From: Chloroflexota bacterium
GTDB taxonomy: Bacteria; Chloroflexota; Anaerolineae; JAAYZQ01
DNA length: 64,000 nucleotides
Assembly (NCBI GenBank): GCA_018606645.1
Contig: JAGVRI010000011.1
Location: 65,346 to 129,345, forward strand
Reading direction: 5' to 3'
The position numbers were made by a program, and so were the translations under genes. The notes beneath the pieces were generated by a model. It was not told the DNA's origin. It made no database searches and saw nothing but the letters and a program-made list of their open reading frames with translations. Positions 39,992 to 52,776 of this stretch are shown here, in pieces; position 1 is the stretch's first letter; every line of letters begins with the position of its first letter.

Positions 39992-41581
39992 TCAGTTCTG
40001 CCTGGCCGCTTCGCGACGGGCAGCGATAAGACGGTTCAGAGCAAACATGTACGCCTTGGCGCTGGCCACGACAATGTCCGTGTCAGAGCCACGCCCGCTG
40101 AACACGCGGCGTTCTACCCCGTTCTCTGTCACCGGTTCATCGGCCTGAATGCGGATCGTAACCCGACCTACCGCATCAATCCCCTCCGTCACCGCCTGGA
40201 TCGAAAACTCGATCAGCTCGTTGGGTTCGCCAATGACCCGGTTGATGGCTCGATAGACCGCATCGACCGGGCCGGTGCCATGATCGGCGTCACAGTAGAC
40301 TCGCCCGTCAGGCCCTCGGATGCTCACGGTGGCCGTAGGAATGCTGTGGTCACCACAGGTGACCTGGACGTGCTCCAGGTGATAGGTTTCCTCAAAGAAC
40401 ATCTGAACCTCATCGGCGACAATCGCTTCCAGGTCTCGGGTGTCCACTGTCTTTTTCTTGTCGGCTACCTCCAGGAAACGTTCGTACACCCGCTCAAACT
40501 GGGACTCATCCAACAGATATCCCAGTTCGGTCAGGCGATGTCGTAGCCCGGCGCGGCCTGAACGGGCGGAGAGCACGATCTCCGAGTCCGGCACGCCTAC
40601 ATCCCGTGGATTGATGATCTCATAGGTGGTCCGTTCCTTCAGAACCCCATCCTGATGGATGCCCGAGGAGTGGGCAAAGGCGTTGGCCCCGACGATGGCC
40701 TTGTTCGGTTGCACCGGGATACCGGTCAACTGACTCACCAGCCGGCTGACCGGATAGATGCGCCGGGTGTTGATCCGGGTTTCCAGGCCAAACAGATCGC
40801 GGCGGGTGCGCAGGGCCATGACCACCTCCTCTAGAGAGCAGTTGCCGGCCCGTTCGCCAATGCCATTGACCGTCACCTCTACCTGGCGTGCGCCGGCCCG
40901 CACCGCAGCCAGCGTATTGGCTGTCGCCATTCCCAGATCGTTGTGGCAGTGGACCGATAGCGTAGCACGGTGGATGTTCGGCACATGTTCGATGATCCCG
41001 CGAATCAGCCTCCCAAACTCATCGGGCGTACTGTAGCCGGTGGTATCTGGGATATTAACCACCGTCGCACCGGCGTCAATCACTGCCTCCACCACTCGAT
41101 ACAGGTATTCCGGTTCAGCCCGGCCTGCATCTTCGGCATAGTACTGCACATCCTCCACAAACTGCTTGGCATACCGGACTGCCTCTACCCCCCATTGCAG
41201 AGCTTCGTCCCGCGTGGTGCGCAGCTTATGTTTGATGTGAATATCAGAGACACCCAGCCCGGTATGGATGCGGGGGCGGGCCGCGCCACGCAGTGCTTCC
41301 GCCGCCACTTCGATATCCTGACGGTTGGCGCGCGTCAGACCGCAGATGACACATTCCCGGATTTCCTGGGAAATGCGCTGCACGGCCCGAAAGTCCCCCG
41401 GCGAAGAGATCGGAAACCCCGCCTCGATGACATCTACCCCCATTTCCTCCAGAGCGTGGGCGATCTCCACCTTTTCATTCACATTCAGAGCAGCTCCGGG
41501 CGATTGTTCCCCATCGCGCAGAGTCGTGTCAAAGATGATCACACGTTCGGTCCCGCGTATCGCATCCTCGGTCATAGGCAT
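39992..41581 (-). CDS. leuA: 2-isopropylmalate synthase
   Basis: [62 protein letters not shown]. Confidence 0.95.
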
Positions 41582-41609: not shown

Positions 41610-42605
41610 TTATTTTGGATTGAGCCAGGGCATCATCGCCCGCAACTGGCGGCCGACTCGCTCGATCAGGTGCTCCCTCTCCCGCTGACGCATCGTATTG
41701 AAGAAGGGCCGGCCAGCCTGGTTCTCCAGGATCCAGGATCGGGCATAGCTGCCATCCTGCACCTCGGCCAGGATGCGGCGCATCTCTGCCCGCGTTTCTT
41801 CGGTAATGATCCGTTTCCCGGCCGTGTAATCGCCGTGCTCTGCCGTATCACTGACCGAATACCGCATGTAGCTCAGGCCACCTTGCTGGATCAGGTCCAC
41901 AATCAGTTTGAGTTCATGCAAACATTCAAAGTATGCGATCTCGGGCTGGTAACCGGCTTCCACCAACGTGTCAAATCCCGCCTTGATCAGCTCGGTGACC
42001 CCCCCGCACAACACTGCCTGTTCGCCAAATAGATCGGTCTCGGTCTCCTCGGCAAAGGTGGTCTCGATCACACCGGCCCGCGTGCAACCGATCCCCCAGG
42101 CATAGGCCAGCGCCACCGCTTTGGCCTGCCCGCTCACATCCTGGTGAACGGCCAACAACGCCGGGGTACCAAATCCCTCCTGATACAGCTCCCGCAAGCG
42201 ATGACCGGGTGACTTGGGGGCGATCATGCTGACATCCACATTCGCCGGCGGCACAATCTGATGATAGCGGATATTAAAGCCGTGAGCGAACATCAAGGTA
42301 TCGCCCGGGTTCAGATTCGGGGCGATCGCTTCCCGGTACAACGGGGGCTGAGCCGGCTCCGGCACCAGGACCATGACGATGTTTGCCCAGGCAACCGCCT
42401 CGGCCACCGGCTTAACCACCAACCCAGCCTCCTCGGCGGCAGCCCACGACCGACTCCCCTCGTACAGACCAACCACAACCTGACATCCGCTGTCTTTGAG
42501 GTTCAAGGCATGGGCATGGCCCTGACTTCCATACCCGATCACCGCGATCCTCTTGTCCGATAGAAGCTTTGGATCTGCATCCCGGTCGTAATAGATGTTA
42601 GCCAT
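41610..42605 (-). CDS. ilvC: Ketol-acid reductoisomerase
   Basis: [55 protein letters not shown]. Confidence 0.97.
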
Positions 42606-42637: not shown

Positions 42638-43168
42638 TTACTTACTTTCAGATGTGGCTTGCGGGGCATCATCCGGCTCATCGCTGTGGCCGTTCCCACC
42701 TCGCACCATGGCCACCCGGCCAGTCCGGGCCAGCTCTTCGATGCCGTACGGCCGCAGCAGGCCGATCAGTGAGTTCACCTTCTCCTCTGGCCCGGTAATC
42801 TCAACGGTTAACGATGTCGCACTGACGTCAACGATCCTGGCCCGAAACACATTCGCTAGTTCCATGATCTCAGTTCGCGTGCCGGCCGTAGCTTTGACCT
42901 TGATCAAAGCCAGCTCGCGGATCACCGTCGGCTGATGGGTCACGTTGAATACCTGAGTCACGTTGATCAGCTTTTCCAGTTGGTGGATCACCTGATCCAC
43001 CACGCGCTCATCGCCCTCTACCACAACGGTCATGCGCGAAATCCCAGGGGTTTCGCTATGCCCCACGCTCAAGCTCTCAATGTTGTAGTTGCGCCGACGG
43101 AACAACCCCGACACCCGGTTAAGCACACCTGGCTTGTCCTCCATCAACGCCACCACCGTATGCTTCAT
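42638..43168 (-). CDS. ilvN: Acetolactate synthase small subunit
   Basis: [47 protein letters not shown]. Confidence 0.95.
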
Positions 43169-43182
43169 CTTGTCCTCCTCGC

Positions 43183-44874
43183 TTAGCCCTGCTCAGATGC
43201 TTCAGGCCGCCGGATCATGGTGTGGATCGGCGCACCCGGCGCCACCATCGGATAGACGTTCTCTTCCTGCACGATCCGAAAGTCGATCAAGAACGGACCA
43301 TCGCTGTGAACCGCTCGGGCAATGGCTGGCTCCACCTCGCTCTTTTCCCGCACGGTCAAGCCTGGAATGCCGTACGCCGCAGCCACCTGGGCAAAATCGG
43401 GCCCCAGGAGTGGCGTGCCGGAATAGCGTCCTTCGAAGAACAACTGCTGCCACTGGCGAACCATGCCCAGATAGCCGTTGTTCAAAATAGCTATTTTGAT
43501 CGGTAGCTTTTCCTGGACCACCGTCGCCAGTTCCTGGATGTTCATTTGAAATCCTCCATCGCCAGCCGTTACCCACACCTGTTCGTGGGGCAGACCAAAT
43601 TGAACGCCAATGGCCGCTGGCAGAGCAAATCCCATGGTTCCTAACCCTCCGGACGAAATCAGAGCCCGGCGCCGATGGTGAATAAAGTATTGCGCTTCCC
43701 ACATCTGGTTCTGTCCAACATCCGAAACAACGACGACATTGCCCTGCGTCGCGTACCAGAGCTGGCGGATCACATATTGAGGGACCAAGTCATCAGACTC
43801 CCGCCCAAGTATGTCTCGCTTGGCCGAGTCTTCACGCCACTCCCCAATTCGAGCCAGCCACTCATCCCGATTGCGCTCCTCCACCAGTGGGATGAGGGCC
43901 GGCAGCACATCTTTCAGATCGCCCACAAGCGCCAGGTCCACAACCACGTTCTTGTTGATCTCGGCCGAATCAATGTCCACGTGGATGATCCGTGCCTGCC
44001 GGCCAAACTGACTGACCGGTCCGGTTAGGCGATCATCAAAGCGGCATCCCAGGGAGACGATCAGATCCGCTTCGCTCATCGCCAGATTGGTGTACGCTTC
44101 GCCGTGCATGCCAGCCATGCCCAGACAAAGGGGGTGCGTTTCAGGGATAGCGCCGATCCCCAACAGAGTCGTGACCACCGGAACATTCGCCTTCTCAACC
44201 AACTGGACCAGGGCATGTTCGGCGCCAGCCAGGATCACTCCATGGCCGGCAATCAGCAAAGGTCGCCGGGCCTCATTCAGCATCCGGGCCGCTTGTTGCA
44301 CCGGCGAGGAGATATCGTTTCTCGGGACCCGGTGACCAGGAAGATGCACCTCGTCGGGATATTGATACTCGCCCTGTGCCGCCTGGACATCCTTGGCGAT
44401 GTCAATCAGAACCGGGCCAGGCCGGCCGGTGCGGGCAATGTGAAACGCCTGCTTGATCACCACCGGCAGCTCTCGGATATCGGTGACCAGATAGTTGTGC
44501 TTGGTAATGGGCAGCGTAATGCCGGTGATGTCAACTTCTTGAAAGGCATCGGTGCCGATAAACGGCGTGGCGACCTGCCCGGTGATCGCCACCACTGGCG
44601 AAGAATCCATGTAGGCGGTGGCCAGGCCGGTAACCAGATTGGTCGCCCCCGGACCCGAAGTAGCCAGGCAGACCCCAACCTTCCCGGTCGCCCGGGCGTA
44701 CCCGTCGGCCGCATGCGCGGCTGCCTGTTCATGACGCATCAACACATGGTGGATCGGGTATTCAGGCAAGGCATGGTAGAGGTGGATCACCGCCCCACCC
44801 GAAATGCCAAAGACGGTATCCACCCCCTCGCGCACCAGGCTCTCCCATACCATTTGTGCTCCGGTCAGTCTCAT
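43183..44874 (-). CDS. ilvB: Acetolactate synthase large subunit
   Basis: [63 protein letters not shown]. Confidence 0.97.
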
Positions 44875-44894: not shown

Positions 44895-46574
44895 CTACTG
44901 ACGCCCGATGGGATCCTTAAAGACTGCCCCGGTGCTGGCGGATGTCACAGCCTCAGCGTACCGTCGCAAGTAGCCAGACTTGACCGGTGGTTCCCATGCC
45001 GGCAATTCGGCTAGACGCCGTGCGATCTCGTCATCCGGGAGTTGGATGTGGAGAGCACGATTTGGAATATCGATCTGAATCAGATCCCCATCTCGGACCA
45101 CCGCCAATGGCCCTCGCTCGGCTGCCTCGGGAGAGATGTGACCGATCGCTGCTCCTCGTGTCGCCCCGGAGAAACGCCCATCGGTCAACAGCGCTACCCG
45201 ATCGTCCAGGTCCATTCCGGAAAGAAGTGAGGTGGGGGTCAGCATCTCCCGCATGCCAGGCCCGCCCTTGGGTCCTTCATAGCGGATGACCAGCACATCA
45301 CCCGGGTTGAATTGTCGGGCCAGGATGGCGGCGGTCGCTGCCTCCTCGGACTCGAATACTCGCGCCGGGCCGATGTGCTGCTGCATTTCGGGAGCGACGA
45401 CTGCCTGTTTGACCACTGCGCCATCGGGAGCCAGATTTCCAAAAAGGATGGCCAGCCCACCTTTCGGCGCGTATGGAGCATCCAAAGGCCGGATCACGGT
45501 GTCATCGCTGACAGTGACCGTAGATAGGTTCTCTGCCAGGGTATGGCCGGTCACGGTAAGCACCGTCCCGTCCAGCAATCCCCCTTCCCACAAGCGGCGC
45601 ATGACTGCCGGCACTCCACCAGCCCGGTGGAGGTCTTCCAGATGATGCCCTCCCGCTGCCGGACTCATCCGGCACAGATGAGGCGTCGAGGCGCTATAGT
45701 CGTTGATCTCGTGCAGGGGAATGTGGATCCCGGCTTCATGGGCAATAGCCAGGAGATGGAGCACCGAATTGGTCGAGCCGCCCAGCGCCATGTCCACCGC
45801 AAAGGCGTTGCGAAATGCAGCGGGGGTCAGAATATCCAGCGGTCGGACATCGCGAGCCAGAAGGTCCATAATCTGCATACCGGCCCGTTTGGCCAAAGCC
45901 AGTCGTTCAGCGTGGACAGCCGGTAGCGTTCCCTGTCCAGGCCACCCCATCCCCAGTGCTTCGGTGAGACAGTTCATCGTGTTAGCCGTGAACATACCAG
46001 CGCAAGAGCCACAACCTGGACAGGCTGCCCGTTCCAGCCGATCGAGTTCGGCCTCAGACATCTCGCCTCGGGCAACCGCTCCCACCGCCATGAACACGTC
46101 GGCCAGGTCCACAGCTCGACCGTCCAGGTGGCCAGCCAACATCGGTCCGCCGTTGACTACGATCGTCGGCACATTCAGACGCGCCGCGGCCATCAGCATA
46201 CCAGGAATCACTTTGTCACAGTTCGGGATCAGCACCACGGCATCGAAGGCATGAGACTCGACGAGGACCTCGACCGAATCGGCGATCAATTCCCGGCTGG
46301 CCAGCGAGTACTTCATGCCAGGGTGGTTCATCGCCAGGCCATCACACACTCCGATCGTATTGCATTCAAAAGGAGTTCCCCCTGCCATCCGGACGCCGGC
46401 TTTGACCGCCTCAGCCACCTGACGTAGATGCACATGCCCGGGAATGACTTCGCTGTAGGAGTTGATGATCCCGATAAACGGTTGCTTCATTTCCTGATCG
46501 GTGCACCCCAAAGCCCGGAGTAACGACCGATGGGGCGCCCGCTCTCGACCTCGTTTCAAAGCATCACTGCGCAT
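44895..46574 (-). CDS. ilvD: Dihydroxy-acid dehydratase
   Basis: [64 protein letters not shown]. Confidence 0.97.
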
Positions 46575-46603: not shown

Positions 46604-46632
46604 AAAAAAGGCCTCCCGTTTGGGAGGCCTTT
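46604..46632 (-). terminator. ilv-leu attenuator terminator
   Basis: Minus strand aaaggcctccc-aaac-gggaggccttt with T-run, about 30 nt before ilvD start. Confidence 0.95.
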
Positions 46633-46655
46633 GCTTGTTGCTAACTCGAAAGGAT

Positions 46656-46781
46656 CTACGCAGGAATCCTCCCAAACACCAAACGCTCCTCAATAATAAG
46701 GCTAAGGAGCTCAATACCAAGGACAATGACCAAGGCAATGGTGGTTGGGAGCAGTTTCGCTGCGATTTCGCCCATTATCAT
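46656..46781 (-). CDS. ilv-leu operon leader peptide MIMGEIAAKLLPTTIALVIVLGIELLSLIIEERLVFGRIPA
   Basis: 41-aa ORF absent from track (below length cutoff); 8 Ile, 8 Leu, 3 Val; between promoter and attenuator terminator. Confidence 0.85.
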   Translation of the reverse strand: MIMGEIAAKLLPTTIALVIVLGIELLSLIIEERLVFGRIPA

Positions 46782-46822
46782 CTCTGGTTACTCAGTTCGC
46801 ACCTGCCATTATGAATGCCGCT

Positions 46823-46851
46823 TTTATACCACATCCCTGCAGCTTTGTCAA
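46823..46851 (-). promoter_or_regulatory. ilv-leu operon promoter (TTGACA-N17-TATAAA)
   Basis: -35 46846-46851, -10 46823-46828 on the minus strand. Confidence 0.8.
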
Positions 46852-46907
46852 ATCTGGCAGGGCGATGTTCAGTTCTTGAATCGGAAGACACAGGATTTGA
46901 CAAAGCT
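46841..46907. repeat. 14-bp perfect inverted repeat agctttgtcaaatc / gatttgacaaagct spanning both divergent -35 boxes
   Basis: Arms 46841-46854 and 46894-46907; exact reverse complements. Confidence 0.9.
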
Positions 46908-46925
46908 CGCGTTCTATGCTAATAT
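46897..46925 (+). promoter_or_regulatory. arg operon promoter (TTGACA-N17-TAATAT)
   Basis: -35 46897-46902, -10 46920-46925. Confidence 0.85.
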
Positions 46926-46951
46926 GCGCTTGAAAGGTAAGGGAGTATTTC

Positions 46952-47029
46952 ATGGACGAAGCAACTGTTTCGTTGACTCTGTTTAAATGCCGACGACCGG
47001 GGAAGGAGCCAGGCCACCTGTCTGGATAG
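46952..47029 (+). CDS. arg operon leader peptide MDEATVSLTLFKCRRPGKEPGHLSG
   Basis: 25-aa ORF with SD AAGGGAG; tandem CGA CGA Arg codons at 46991-46996; upstream of terminator and argG. Confidence 0.7.
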   Translation: MDEATVSLTLFKCRRPGKEPGHLSG

Positions 47030-47061
47030 GCTCAACTCGGCGTCGCTGCGAGAGACACAAT

Positions 47062-47095
47062 AGAGCCAGCCCCAGATAGGGGCTGGCTCTTTTTA
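47062..47095 (+). terminator. arg attenuator terminator
   Basis: agagccagcccc-agata-ggggctggctct followed by TTTT, 70 nt before argG. Confidence 0.92.
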
Positions 47096-50034: not shown

Positions 50035-50886
50035 ATGAAGATCGGGGTGTTGTGCTCGCGAGTGCGAGTGGAGGAAAAGCAGATCTTCACCGCCCTAGCC
50101 CAACGAGGGGTCCCATATGATCGGCTGGACCCACGGGAACTGGTCCTGGAACCCGGACGCAACGGATTGGAGAGGTACGATGCCGTTCTGGTCCGTTGTC
50201 TGAGCCATTCCCATGCCTACTATGCCACTCGTTGGTTAGAAGACCTGGGCATAAGGGCGGTCAGTTCCCATCAGGTGGTGGCAACGTGCGGCGACAAGTT
50301 GCTGACTACTGCTGCCCTGCAAGCGGCCGGACTCCCGGTTCCCCGGTCTGTGATCGCTTTTACCCCAGAGGCGGCTTTGCAGACCATCGAGAGTCTCGGC
50401 TACCCGGTTGTCTTGAAACCCCTTGTCGGATCGTGGGGCCGACTCTTGGCCCGCATCAACGACCGGGATGCAGCGGAGGCGCTGCTGGAACACAAAGCGA
50501 CCTTGGGCGGCACTCAGCACGGAGTATTCTATATCCAGGAGTATATAGACAAACCCGGCCACGATATTCGCACTCTGGTGGTTGGAGACAAGGTGGTCTG
50601 TGCGATCTACCGGCGCTCGGATCACTGGATTACGAATACAGCGCGGGGTGGAGAAGCGTTGCCCTGCCCTCTCACCCCGAAACTGGTGGAGCTGTCGCTG
50701 GCTGCAGCCCAGGCCGTCGGTGGGGGCATCGTCGCTGTCGATCTGCTTGAGAATCGGGAGGGCCAACTCCTGGTCAACGAGGTGAACCATACCCCCGAAT
50801 TCCACGGAGCCATGCAGGCCACCGAGGCCGATATTGCCGGCACAATGGTCGAATATCTGTGGCAGATTGCCAGGGGGAAGGCATGA
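50035..50886 (+). CDS. lysX: LysX/ArgX-type LysW-amino acid ligase (ATP-grasp, RimK family)
   Basis: [47 protein letters not shown]; directly follows lysW. Confidence 0.92.
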
Positions 50887-51920
50887 TCCAGGCCGCGATT
50901 GTAGGCGCTTCAGGCTATGTCGGGGGGGAGCTGCTGCGTCTGTTGCTGGCCCATCCTCAAGTTCAGGTGACACAGATCACCTCGGAAACCTATGCCGGCC
51001 AGTATGCCTATTTTGTCCACCCCAATCTGCGGGGCCGCACCGATCTCCGCTTTGGCCGTCTGGCTGACCTGAACCCCTGCGACCTGCTCTTTCTGGCCCT
51101 TCCTCATGGCCATGCCATGGAGCAGATCGAGGGGTTTGCCACCATGGCCGAGCGGATCATTGATCTGTCGGCCGATTTCCGTCTGAAGAATCCGAGTGAC
51201 TACCAGCCCTGGTACGAACGCCAACACCCGGCGCCGCACTGGCTGGACCGTTTTGTCTATGGCGTGCCAGAGCTTCATCGGGAGCAACTTGCCCAGGCGC
51301 ACTATGCCAGCGGCACGGGGTGCAATGCCATCGTCACCTTGCTAGCCTTATGGCCCCTCTATCGGCGCGGCGTAGTTCGTGAGACGGTGGTGGAGGTCAA
51401 AGTCGGTTCTTCAGAGGGAGGGCACGAGCCCAGCCCGGCTTCTCATCATCCAGAGCGATCCGGTGTCATCCGCACCTATGCGCCGGTTGGCCATCGCCAC
51501 CTGGCCGAACTGATCCAGGAACTAGGCCTGAACCCCCAGCAACCTGGACTGCACTTTTCCGTCACTTCGGTAGACATTGTGCGCGGAGCGTTGGCCACCT
51601 GTCACTGCCTGCTCCAGCATCCCCTGGACGAGCGCGATGTCTGGCAGTTCTATCGTGAGGATTATGGCGCTGAACCTTTTGTGCGCCTGGTACGGTCCAA
51701 ACGCGGTATTCATCGCTATCCCGAACCCAAGATCCTCTCCGGTTCAAACTACTGCGACATCGGGTTTGCCGTCGATCCCGCACAACAACGTTTGGTCATC
51801 ATCGCCGCCATTGATAACCTGATGAAGGGCGCGGCCGGTACGGCGGTGCAGGCCATGAACGTGATGATGGGCTGGCCAGAGACGCTGGCGCTGGACTTTC
51901 CAGGGCTTCATCCCATCTAG
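50883..51920 (+). CDS. lysY: LysW-linked N-acetyl-gamma-glutamyl-phosphate reductase-type (ArgC/LysY)
   Basis: [44 protein letters not shown]. Confidence 0.92.
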
Positions 51921-51969
51921 GGGAGCCAAGAGACTTATGTCGAGTATCTATCCGCCAAAGGAGGCAGAC

Positions 51970-52776
51970 ATGATTGTGGTGAAAATGGGGGGTAGTGATG
52001 GGGTGAACCTGGAGGCGGTATGCGCCGACATCGCCACCCTGGTGGGAGCCGGCGAGCAGATCGTCTTGGTCCATGGCGGTTCCCATGAGACCAATCTGAT
52101 CTCAGAAAAGCTGGGGGTCCCGCCCCGCTTTGTGACATCACCGTCCGGCCATGCCAGCCGGTACACTGATCGCCAGACGTTGGAGATCCTGGTCATGGTG
52201 GAGGCCGGTCGGATCAACAAACGGATCGTCGAACGGTTGCAGCAGTCTGGAGTCAACGCCATCGGGCTCTCCGGGCTAGATGGACGACTGCTCGAAGCGA
52301 AGCGAAAAGAAACCCTGCCGATCGTAGAGCACGGCAAGCGGAAGGTGCTCCATGGGGAATATAGCGGACAGATTGAGAGGGTGAATATCTCACTGCTACG
52401 GATGCTGTTGGAAACAGGGTATGTGCCGGTAGTTGCTCCATTGGCCATCAGTCACCGCCATGAAGCCTTGAATGTGGACGGTGATCGGGTTGCCGCCGCC
52501 ATCGGCTCGGCCTTAAATGCCCAGGTTGTGGTCATCCTTTCCAACGTACCTGGCCTGTTAAAGGATCCAACCAATGAAGCCAGCCTGATCTCCCAGGTGC
52601 CGCTGTCGCAAGCACAGGAGTACCTGGAGCGCTTCGCCCAAGGCCGGATGAAGCGCAAAATGCTGGGAGCCATTGACGCCCTGAAGAGTGGCGTAAAGCG
52701 GGTAATGATTGCCGACGGGCGGGTAGAGCACCCTCTGCAACGTGCCCTGGCTGGTTGGGGAACAGTGATCGAGTGA
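51970..52776 (+). CDS. lysZ: LysW-linked acetylglutamate kinase-type (ArgB/LysZ)
   Basis: [36 protein letters not shown]; start trimmed to 51970. Confidence 0.92.

Follow-up and report, generated by a model that had tools for sequence, protein, structure and literature searches.

The classical attenuators of branched-chain amino acid (BCAA) synthesis, namely those of the proteobacterial ilvGMEDA, ilvBN and leuABCD operons, combine a leader ORF carrying BCAA codons with mutually exclusive RNA pairings (1:2, 2:3 and 3:4) and a U-run terminator ahead of the BCAA operon. Most documented cases of ribosome-mediated attenuation come from Proteobacteria and Actinobacteria. Leader-peptide systems outside these two phyla were essentially unknown in 2010, when a terminator survey added one such system in Firmicutes (PMC2965389). 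In Corynebacterium, the ilvB-II motif/ilvBNC attenuator possesses a BCAA leader peptide, an antiterminator/terminator switch and an anti-antiterminator stem (PMC10272879, PMC11857589). The ilvB-OMG motif, a uORF-bearing RNA found ahead of ilvB in several phyla, is now thought to represent attenuators (PMC10272879).

Here we analysed a leader ahead of ilvD in a 64,000-nt stretch of DNA (referred to below as the window) that is part of a 32-contig, 4.27-Mb genome assembly of a Chloroflexota bacterium. The leader shares with the proteobacterial BCAA attenuators the BCAA-codon ORF, the 1:2/2:3/3:4 set, the U-run terminator and the BCAA operon, but differs from those leaders in an extra hairpin inside the 1:2 stem, in an ORF that usually runs through region 2 and ends ~20 nt beyond the point at which the region-2 core begins, and in having no sequence or Rfam match. 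It also resembles the corynebacterial attenuator in the features given above, although the latter has a short leader (MTIIRLVVVTARRLP), precedes ilvB only, is found in one genus, is a two-stem motif (PMC10272879, PMC11857589), and differs in sequence and phylum. No Rfam family matched the leader at its gathering score, the ilvB-OMG, Leu, Phe and Thr leaders included; searches for ilvB-OMG were negative both for the window at Rfam thresholds and for the leader region up to E = 10, and no T-box (RF00230) was found in the window. Among attenuator families, Phe_leader (RF01859) alone gave a sub-threshold match to the leader (33.9 bits against a gathering score of 55), the likeness lying in the leader-plus-terminator shape and the difference in its Phe rather than BCAA codons. 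Text searches of the literature returned no attenuation paper on Chloroflexi, and an across-bacteria attenuation survey by Lopatovskaya et al. 2010 (doi 10.1134/S0026893310010164) could contain earlier examples. From sequence comparison, the BCAA attenuator of Anaerolineae appears to be an undescribed class-wide family, its mechanism being well known.

RESULTS AND DISCUSSION

The leader precedes ilv and leu genes and encodes a BCAA-rich peptide

On the minus strand of the window, a promoter, the leader ORF and a terminator are followed by ilvD, which starts at 46574. The genes downstream, all scoring above an NCBIfam cut-off, form the BCAA biosynthesis operon ilvD-ilvB-ilvN-ilvC-leuA, encoding dihydroxy-acid dehydratase (44895–46574; TIGR00110, 769 bits), the acetolactate synthase large subunit (43183–44874; TIGR00118, 754 bits) and small subunit (42638–43168; TIGR00119, 207 bits), ketol-acid reductoisomerase (41610–42605; TIGR00465, 449 bits) and 2-isopropylmalate synthase (39992–41581; TIGR00973, 728 bits). 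The IlvD protein is 80–85% identical to those of Anaerolineae and Ardenticatenales MAGs, which indicates a Chloroflexota genome of this affiliation. The predicted promoter, which was absent from the original prediction, is consensus-like (minus strand, 46851–46823), with a −35 box TTGACA at 46851–46846, a 17-nt spacer and a −10 box TATAAA at 46828–46823 preceded by a TGn extended −10; it was unlisted in the promoter scan because the scan demands a T at the last −10 position. Judged by the promoter spacing, transcription would thus start near 46816, upstream of the leader ORF.

The leader ORF (minus strand, 46781–46656, 41 codons, stop codon at 46658–46656) has a weak Shine–Dalgarno sequence and encodes MIMGEIAAKLLPTTIALVIVLGIELLSLIIEERLVFGRIPA*, in which eight Ile, eight Leu and three Val residues account for 19 of the 41 positions, in agreement with the peptide originally proposed. 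This proportion (46%) was reached by no other ORF among the 367 of 30–60 amino acids in the six frames of the window. The BCAA control-codon run ATT GCC TTG GTC ATT GTC CTT GGT ATT GAG CTC CTT AGC CTT ATT ATT occupies 46739–46692 on the minus strand, directly behind region 1 (46751–46740), as had been noted.

The ORF of the window passes through region 2 and stops ~10 nt behind it, so that completed translation would itself cover region 2. Of 54 leaders compared, 49 had their stop codon at region 2 or beyond it and five had it before region 2; the commonest position was exactly 20 nt downstream of where the region-2 core begins (median 20), with the others mostly at 13–35 nt. This restricted placement suggests that a ribosome at the stop codon would usually cover region 2 in the homologues also.

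Codon use in the leaders differed from that of the window's genes, with a preference for codons that those genes use little (CTT/CTC, ATT and GTT). CTT made up 32% of the Leu codons compared with 6% in the window's genes and CTG 18% compared with 55%, whereas ATT accounted for 78% of the Ile codons compared with 28% and GTT for 38% of the Val codons compared with 12%. RNA constraints such as GAGCUCCUU may explain part of this bias. Classically, a single Leu isoacceptor reads both CTT and CTC and, since both are favoured here, Leu may be the main signal of the attenuator.

Mutually exclusive pairings in the leader RNA

The 1:2, 2:3 and 3:4 pairings that had been proposed were confirmed base by base on the minus strand. 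Region 1 (CTCCCAACCACC, 46751–46740) is complementary to region 2 (GGTGTTTGGGAG, 46680–46669) at 11 of 12 positions, with a single C.U mismatch; the duplex has a z-score of −4.2, none of 200 shuffles of the upstream strand being as good. Region 2, in its full extent GGTGTTTGGGAGG (46680–46668), is also the alternative partner of region 3: its segment TTTGGGAGG (46676–46668) is perfectly complementary over 9 bp to CCTCCCAAA (46627–46619), giving an antiterminator that spans 46676–46619. The intrinsic terminator 3:4 (46632–46607), situated between the leader ORF and ilvD, the first structural gene, is an 11-bp stem with the loop AAAC, followed by TTTTTTATAT, with the U-run at 46606–46601. The 2:3 pairing is mutually exclusive with the terminator, and the 1:2 protector pairing is mutually exclusive with 2:3. 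Nested in the 1:2 stem is an inner hairpin (GCUCCUUAGCCUUAUUAUUGAGGAGC; GCUCCUUAGCC..GAGGAGC, 46710–46685, minus strand), which was absent from the original prediction and is conserved in relatives.

The leader RNA folds at −77.1 kcal/mol compared with −62.9±4.7 kcal/mol for dinucleotide shuffles (z = −3.0), and its minimum fold in the absence of a ribosome consists of 1:2 plus 3:4. When folding was constrained by masking region 1 and leaving region 4 untranscribed, the MFE structure contained 2:3 in 66 of the 71 homologues as well as in the window. The terminator state dominated thermodynamically whether or not region 1 was masked. In the window, a rival local hairpin of region 2 with 46660–46645 is within ~3 kcal/mol of 2:3. 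With RNA polymerase at 46616, 2:3 has −24.3 kcal/mol compared with −21.7 kcal/mol for the best fold without region 3, and three bases further on the nascent terminator is favoured over 2:3. Given this local rival and a terminator state that is favoured once several 3:4 pairs exist, the folding models imply that antitermination in the window, like that of the classical model, must be kinetic; its efficiency may be lower here than in relatives.

The switch is conserved by compensatory changes

Inspection of the regions upstream of relatives' ilvD genes revealed the same leader at 19 distinct Anaerolineae loci, the window included. All share a BCAA-rich ORF and the inner hairpin GAGCUCC..GGAGC, together with region 2, whose typical form is GCGGUUGGGAGG, and a terminator that typically reads GCCUCCCAACCGGGAGGC. 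In a MAFFT alignment of these 19 sequences, 92.6% of the 2:3 cells were paired compared with 89.3±0.7% after shuffling, and five of ten pairs had changed on both sides; on these two measures only 0–1 of 500 shuffles were as good. Over 71 sequences, 84.8% of the 2:3 cells were paired and seven of ten pairs had changed on both sides. Compensatory variants of region 2 and region 3 include GUUGGGAGG/CCUCCCAAC, UUUGGGAGG/CCUCCCAAA in the window and GUCGGGAGG/CCUCCCGAC in L040. For 3:4 and the inner hairpin together, 11 of 18 pairs had changed on both sides in the MAFFT alignment; over the 71 sequences, in an alignment fitted to that structure, the figures were 17 of 18 pairs and 96.4% of cells paired, with covariation at all seven modelled pairs of the inner hairpin.

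Region 1 was misaligned when included, and 1:2 was therefore tested by duplex energies. Native partners in the homologues had a mean of −20.2 kcal/mol compared with −17.0 kcal/mol for swapped partners, and the pairing was better than shuffles (P<0.05) in 24 of 56 homologues, mostly near relatives. The 1:2 pairing is thus strong in the window and its near relatives and weaker in distant homologues.

Distribution of the element and the genes behind it

A covariance model was built from the inner hairpin and terminator of these leaders, region 1 being left out on account of its variable spacing from the inner hairpin. The model found one copy in the window's own genome (E 5e-20). At E<=0.01, a threshold at which ~4 false matches are expected in 397 genomes, it had a match in 254 of the 397 Anaerolineae genomes searched; specificity was judged from E-values together with gene context. 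In a phylum-wide search, 50 of 301 genomes had a match at E <= 0.001, and 22 of these were outside Anaerolineae.

Gene context was fetched for 40 matches, picked to include second copies and weak ones rather than as a random sample. Of these, 34 precede ilvD, ilvB, a leuA-like gene, ilvE, leuS or a periplasmic binding protein gene, with ilvD downstream in 16 and ilvB in 13. Individual matches lie ahead of a LeuA-like enzyme (L172), a branched-chain transaminase (L147), leucyl-tRNA synthetase (L157) and a periplasmic binding protein of liv-type transport (L177 and L180, the binding-protein assignment being below the Pfam cut-off). The remaining six have no clear BCAA gene downstream; among them are BCAA-type attenuators ahead of a rubrerythrin-like gene (L146 in G007) and of a ~140-amino-acid protein without a Pfam match (L149 in G048 and L150 in G013).

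Several relatives differ upstream of ilvD. In a close relative (L004/L085, ilvD 84%), the element is absent within the 283 nt of upstream sequence available. Many relatives (L006, L010–L012, L014, L053, L066, L094, L095 and L108), but not the window, carry between the attenuator and ilvD a further conserved hairpin that ends in a U-rich tail (..AAUGAYGCCUUUG..AGGC..UUUU); it has no Rfam match and may be a second terminator or some other regulatory element. Ahead of ilvD in two Dehalococcoidia (L016 and L023) the leader is very short and contains no BCAA ORF, with a TTGACA promoter-like site just upstream and the layout GGGAACGGC .. ACCGUCCC .. GGGGCGGU plus a U-run, which looks like an antiterminator/terminator pair.

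Proposed mechanism and alternative explanations

Taken together, the comparative evidence is best explained by a classical ribosome-mediated transcription attenuator, which very probably controls ilvD-ilvB-ilvN-ilvC-leuA. This reading, the one originally put forward, is supported by the NCBIfam-defined BCAA operon downstream, by an architecture kept through sequence change, as seen in the compensatory changes of 2:3, of 3:4 and of the inner hairpin and, among near relatives, in native 1:2 pairing, and by model matches elsewhere that lie mostly ahead of BCAA genes. In the proposed scheme, a ribosome would start the 41-codon leader on a transcript begun near 46816. When charged Ile-, Leu- or Val-tRNA is short, it would stall within 46739–46692 and mask region 1; region 2 would then pair with region 3 once the latter is transcribed, and RNA polymerase would continue into ilvD. 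When charged tRNA is plentiful, the ribosome would reach the stop codon and cover region 2, allowing 3:4 to form and transcription to terminate at the U-run. If the leader were untranslated, 1:2 with the inner hairpin at its tip would form, and 3:4 would again terminate transcription.

A different view of the ORF is that it encodes a small hydrophobic membrane protein, the hairpin merely terminating its short transcript and ilvD being transcribed from another promoter. The peptide is indeed hydrophobic, ~41 amino acids long and followed by a strong terminator. However, over 39 leaders I+L+V make up 75% of I+L+V+A+F+G+M+W, which is an Ile/Leu/Val-specific composition and not one of general membrane residues; the complementarity of region 2 to region 3 is kept by compensatory changes; L008 reads region 2 in a different frame while the RNA motif is kept; and where the gene downstream is that of DAHP synthase, the leader runs are of Tyr/Phe. 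On these grounds we rejected this view, which we regard as highly improbable. The conservation of 2:3 also bears on the idea that the hairpin is a constitutive partial terminator with unregulated readthrough and that the ORF is a relic. The thermodynamic dominance of the terminator state, with or without region 1 masked, would suit such an arrangement, but class-wide conservation and compensatory 2:3 changes would be needless for a mere terminator, and we give this idea almost no credence.

Switching of the hairpins by a ligand, tRNA or protein instead of translation (a riboswitch, a T-box or an RNA-binding protein) would be consistent with an RNA that folds alone and has three conserved hairpins. 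In one relative, a Chloroflexi MAG (L013), a T-box (RF00230, 110 bits) lies ahead of the same gene, ilvD, in place of the attenuator. Against this, the leader itself has no Rfam riboswitch or T-box match and no long invariant aptamer core, its conserved columns being the switch arms and the terminator, and the conserved BCAA frame, the position of the stop codon and the codon bias all presuppose a translated leader. A riboswitch or T-box was rejected on these grounds, and we consider non-translational switching improbable.

Leaders for aromatic amino acids and arginine

In Dehalococcoidia, weaker model matches were found in 38 of 246 genomes (E <= 0.1), many of them covering the terminator only. 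Most of the full-length matches examined were Phe/Tyr-rich leaders, such as MKNNFAPKYYYYYYFGRIKVRLGESL, MSNQAYSYYYFYFGFSTRPCEPGRAST and MLDQASSYYFYFWFGTLANGPGRRVT, directly ahead of the gene for DAHP synthase, which catalyses the first step in aromatic synthesis. Such a Phe/Tyr-rich leader ORF with a terminator directly ahead of DAHP synthase genes occurs among L206–L222, and L206 has seven consecutive Phe codons ahead of an AMP-binding (acyl-CoA ligase-like) gene. These aromatic leaders may be homologous to the BCAA element or convergent with it; the model score there comes largely from the terminator. In either case, the leader codon content appears to follow the pathway, as translation-sensing predicts.

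The window contains a further leader on the plus strand, that of the divergent argG operon (46897–47090), which comprises a promoter TTGACA-17-TAATAT (46897–46925), a 25-codon ORF encoding MDEATVSLTLFKCRRPGKEPGHLSG and ending near 47028, and a 12-bp terminator (47062–47090). The Arg run of its peptide (CGACGACGA codons) is kept in approximately nine relatives (L238–L242, L245, L249, L254 and L256 among them). The peptides mostly end in ..SG, where the RNA CCGUCUGG matches CCAGACGG of the terminator. This leader is probably an arginine attenuator. Behind argG-argH (50035–52776, plus strand) lie a LysX-type ligase gene (TIGR02144) and then ArgC/LysY-like and ArgB/LysZ-like ORFs, the latter two named by eye; this part of the divergent operon looks like a LysW-type lysine/arginine pathway. 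Elsewhere in the window, a TPP riboswitch was found at 15975–16103 (plus strand, 67.5 bits).

It is conceivable, although we hold it with some doubt, that Chloroflexota possess a phylum-wide interchangeable attenuator chassis, in which a GGGAGG/CCUCCC region-2/terminator half would be combined with BCAA frames in Anaerolineae or Phe/Tyr frames ahead of DAHP synthase in Dehalococcoidia, together with an arginine-codon attenuator ahead of argG.

Implications

The covariance model can be used for annotating genomes of mostly uncultured organisms, and short leader genes, which annotation usually omits, can be identified through the attenuator family. The family spans genes of BCAA synthesis and, in single cases, genes for transamination, for transport and for the charging of Leu-tRNA, and codon specificity appears to change where the operon is aromatic. 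A class-wide family in Chloroflexota bears on whether ribosome-mediated attenuation is old or has been re-invented repeatedly. If the interchangeable chassis were real, ribosome-mediated attenuation would be a general control of amino-acid synthesis in Chloroflexota.
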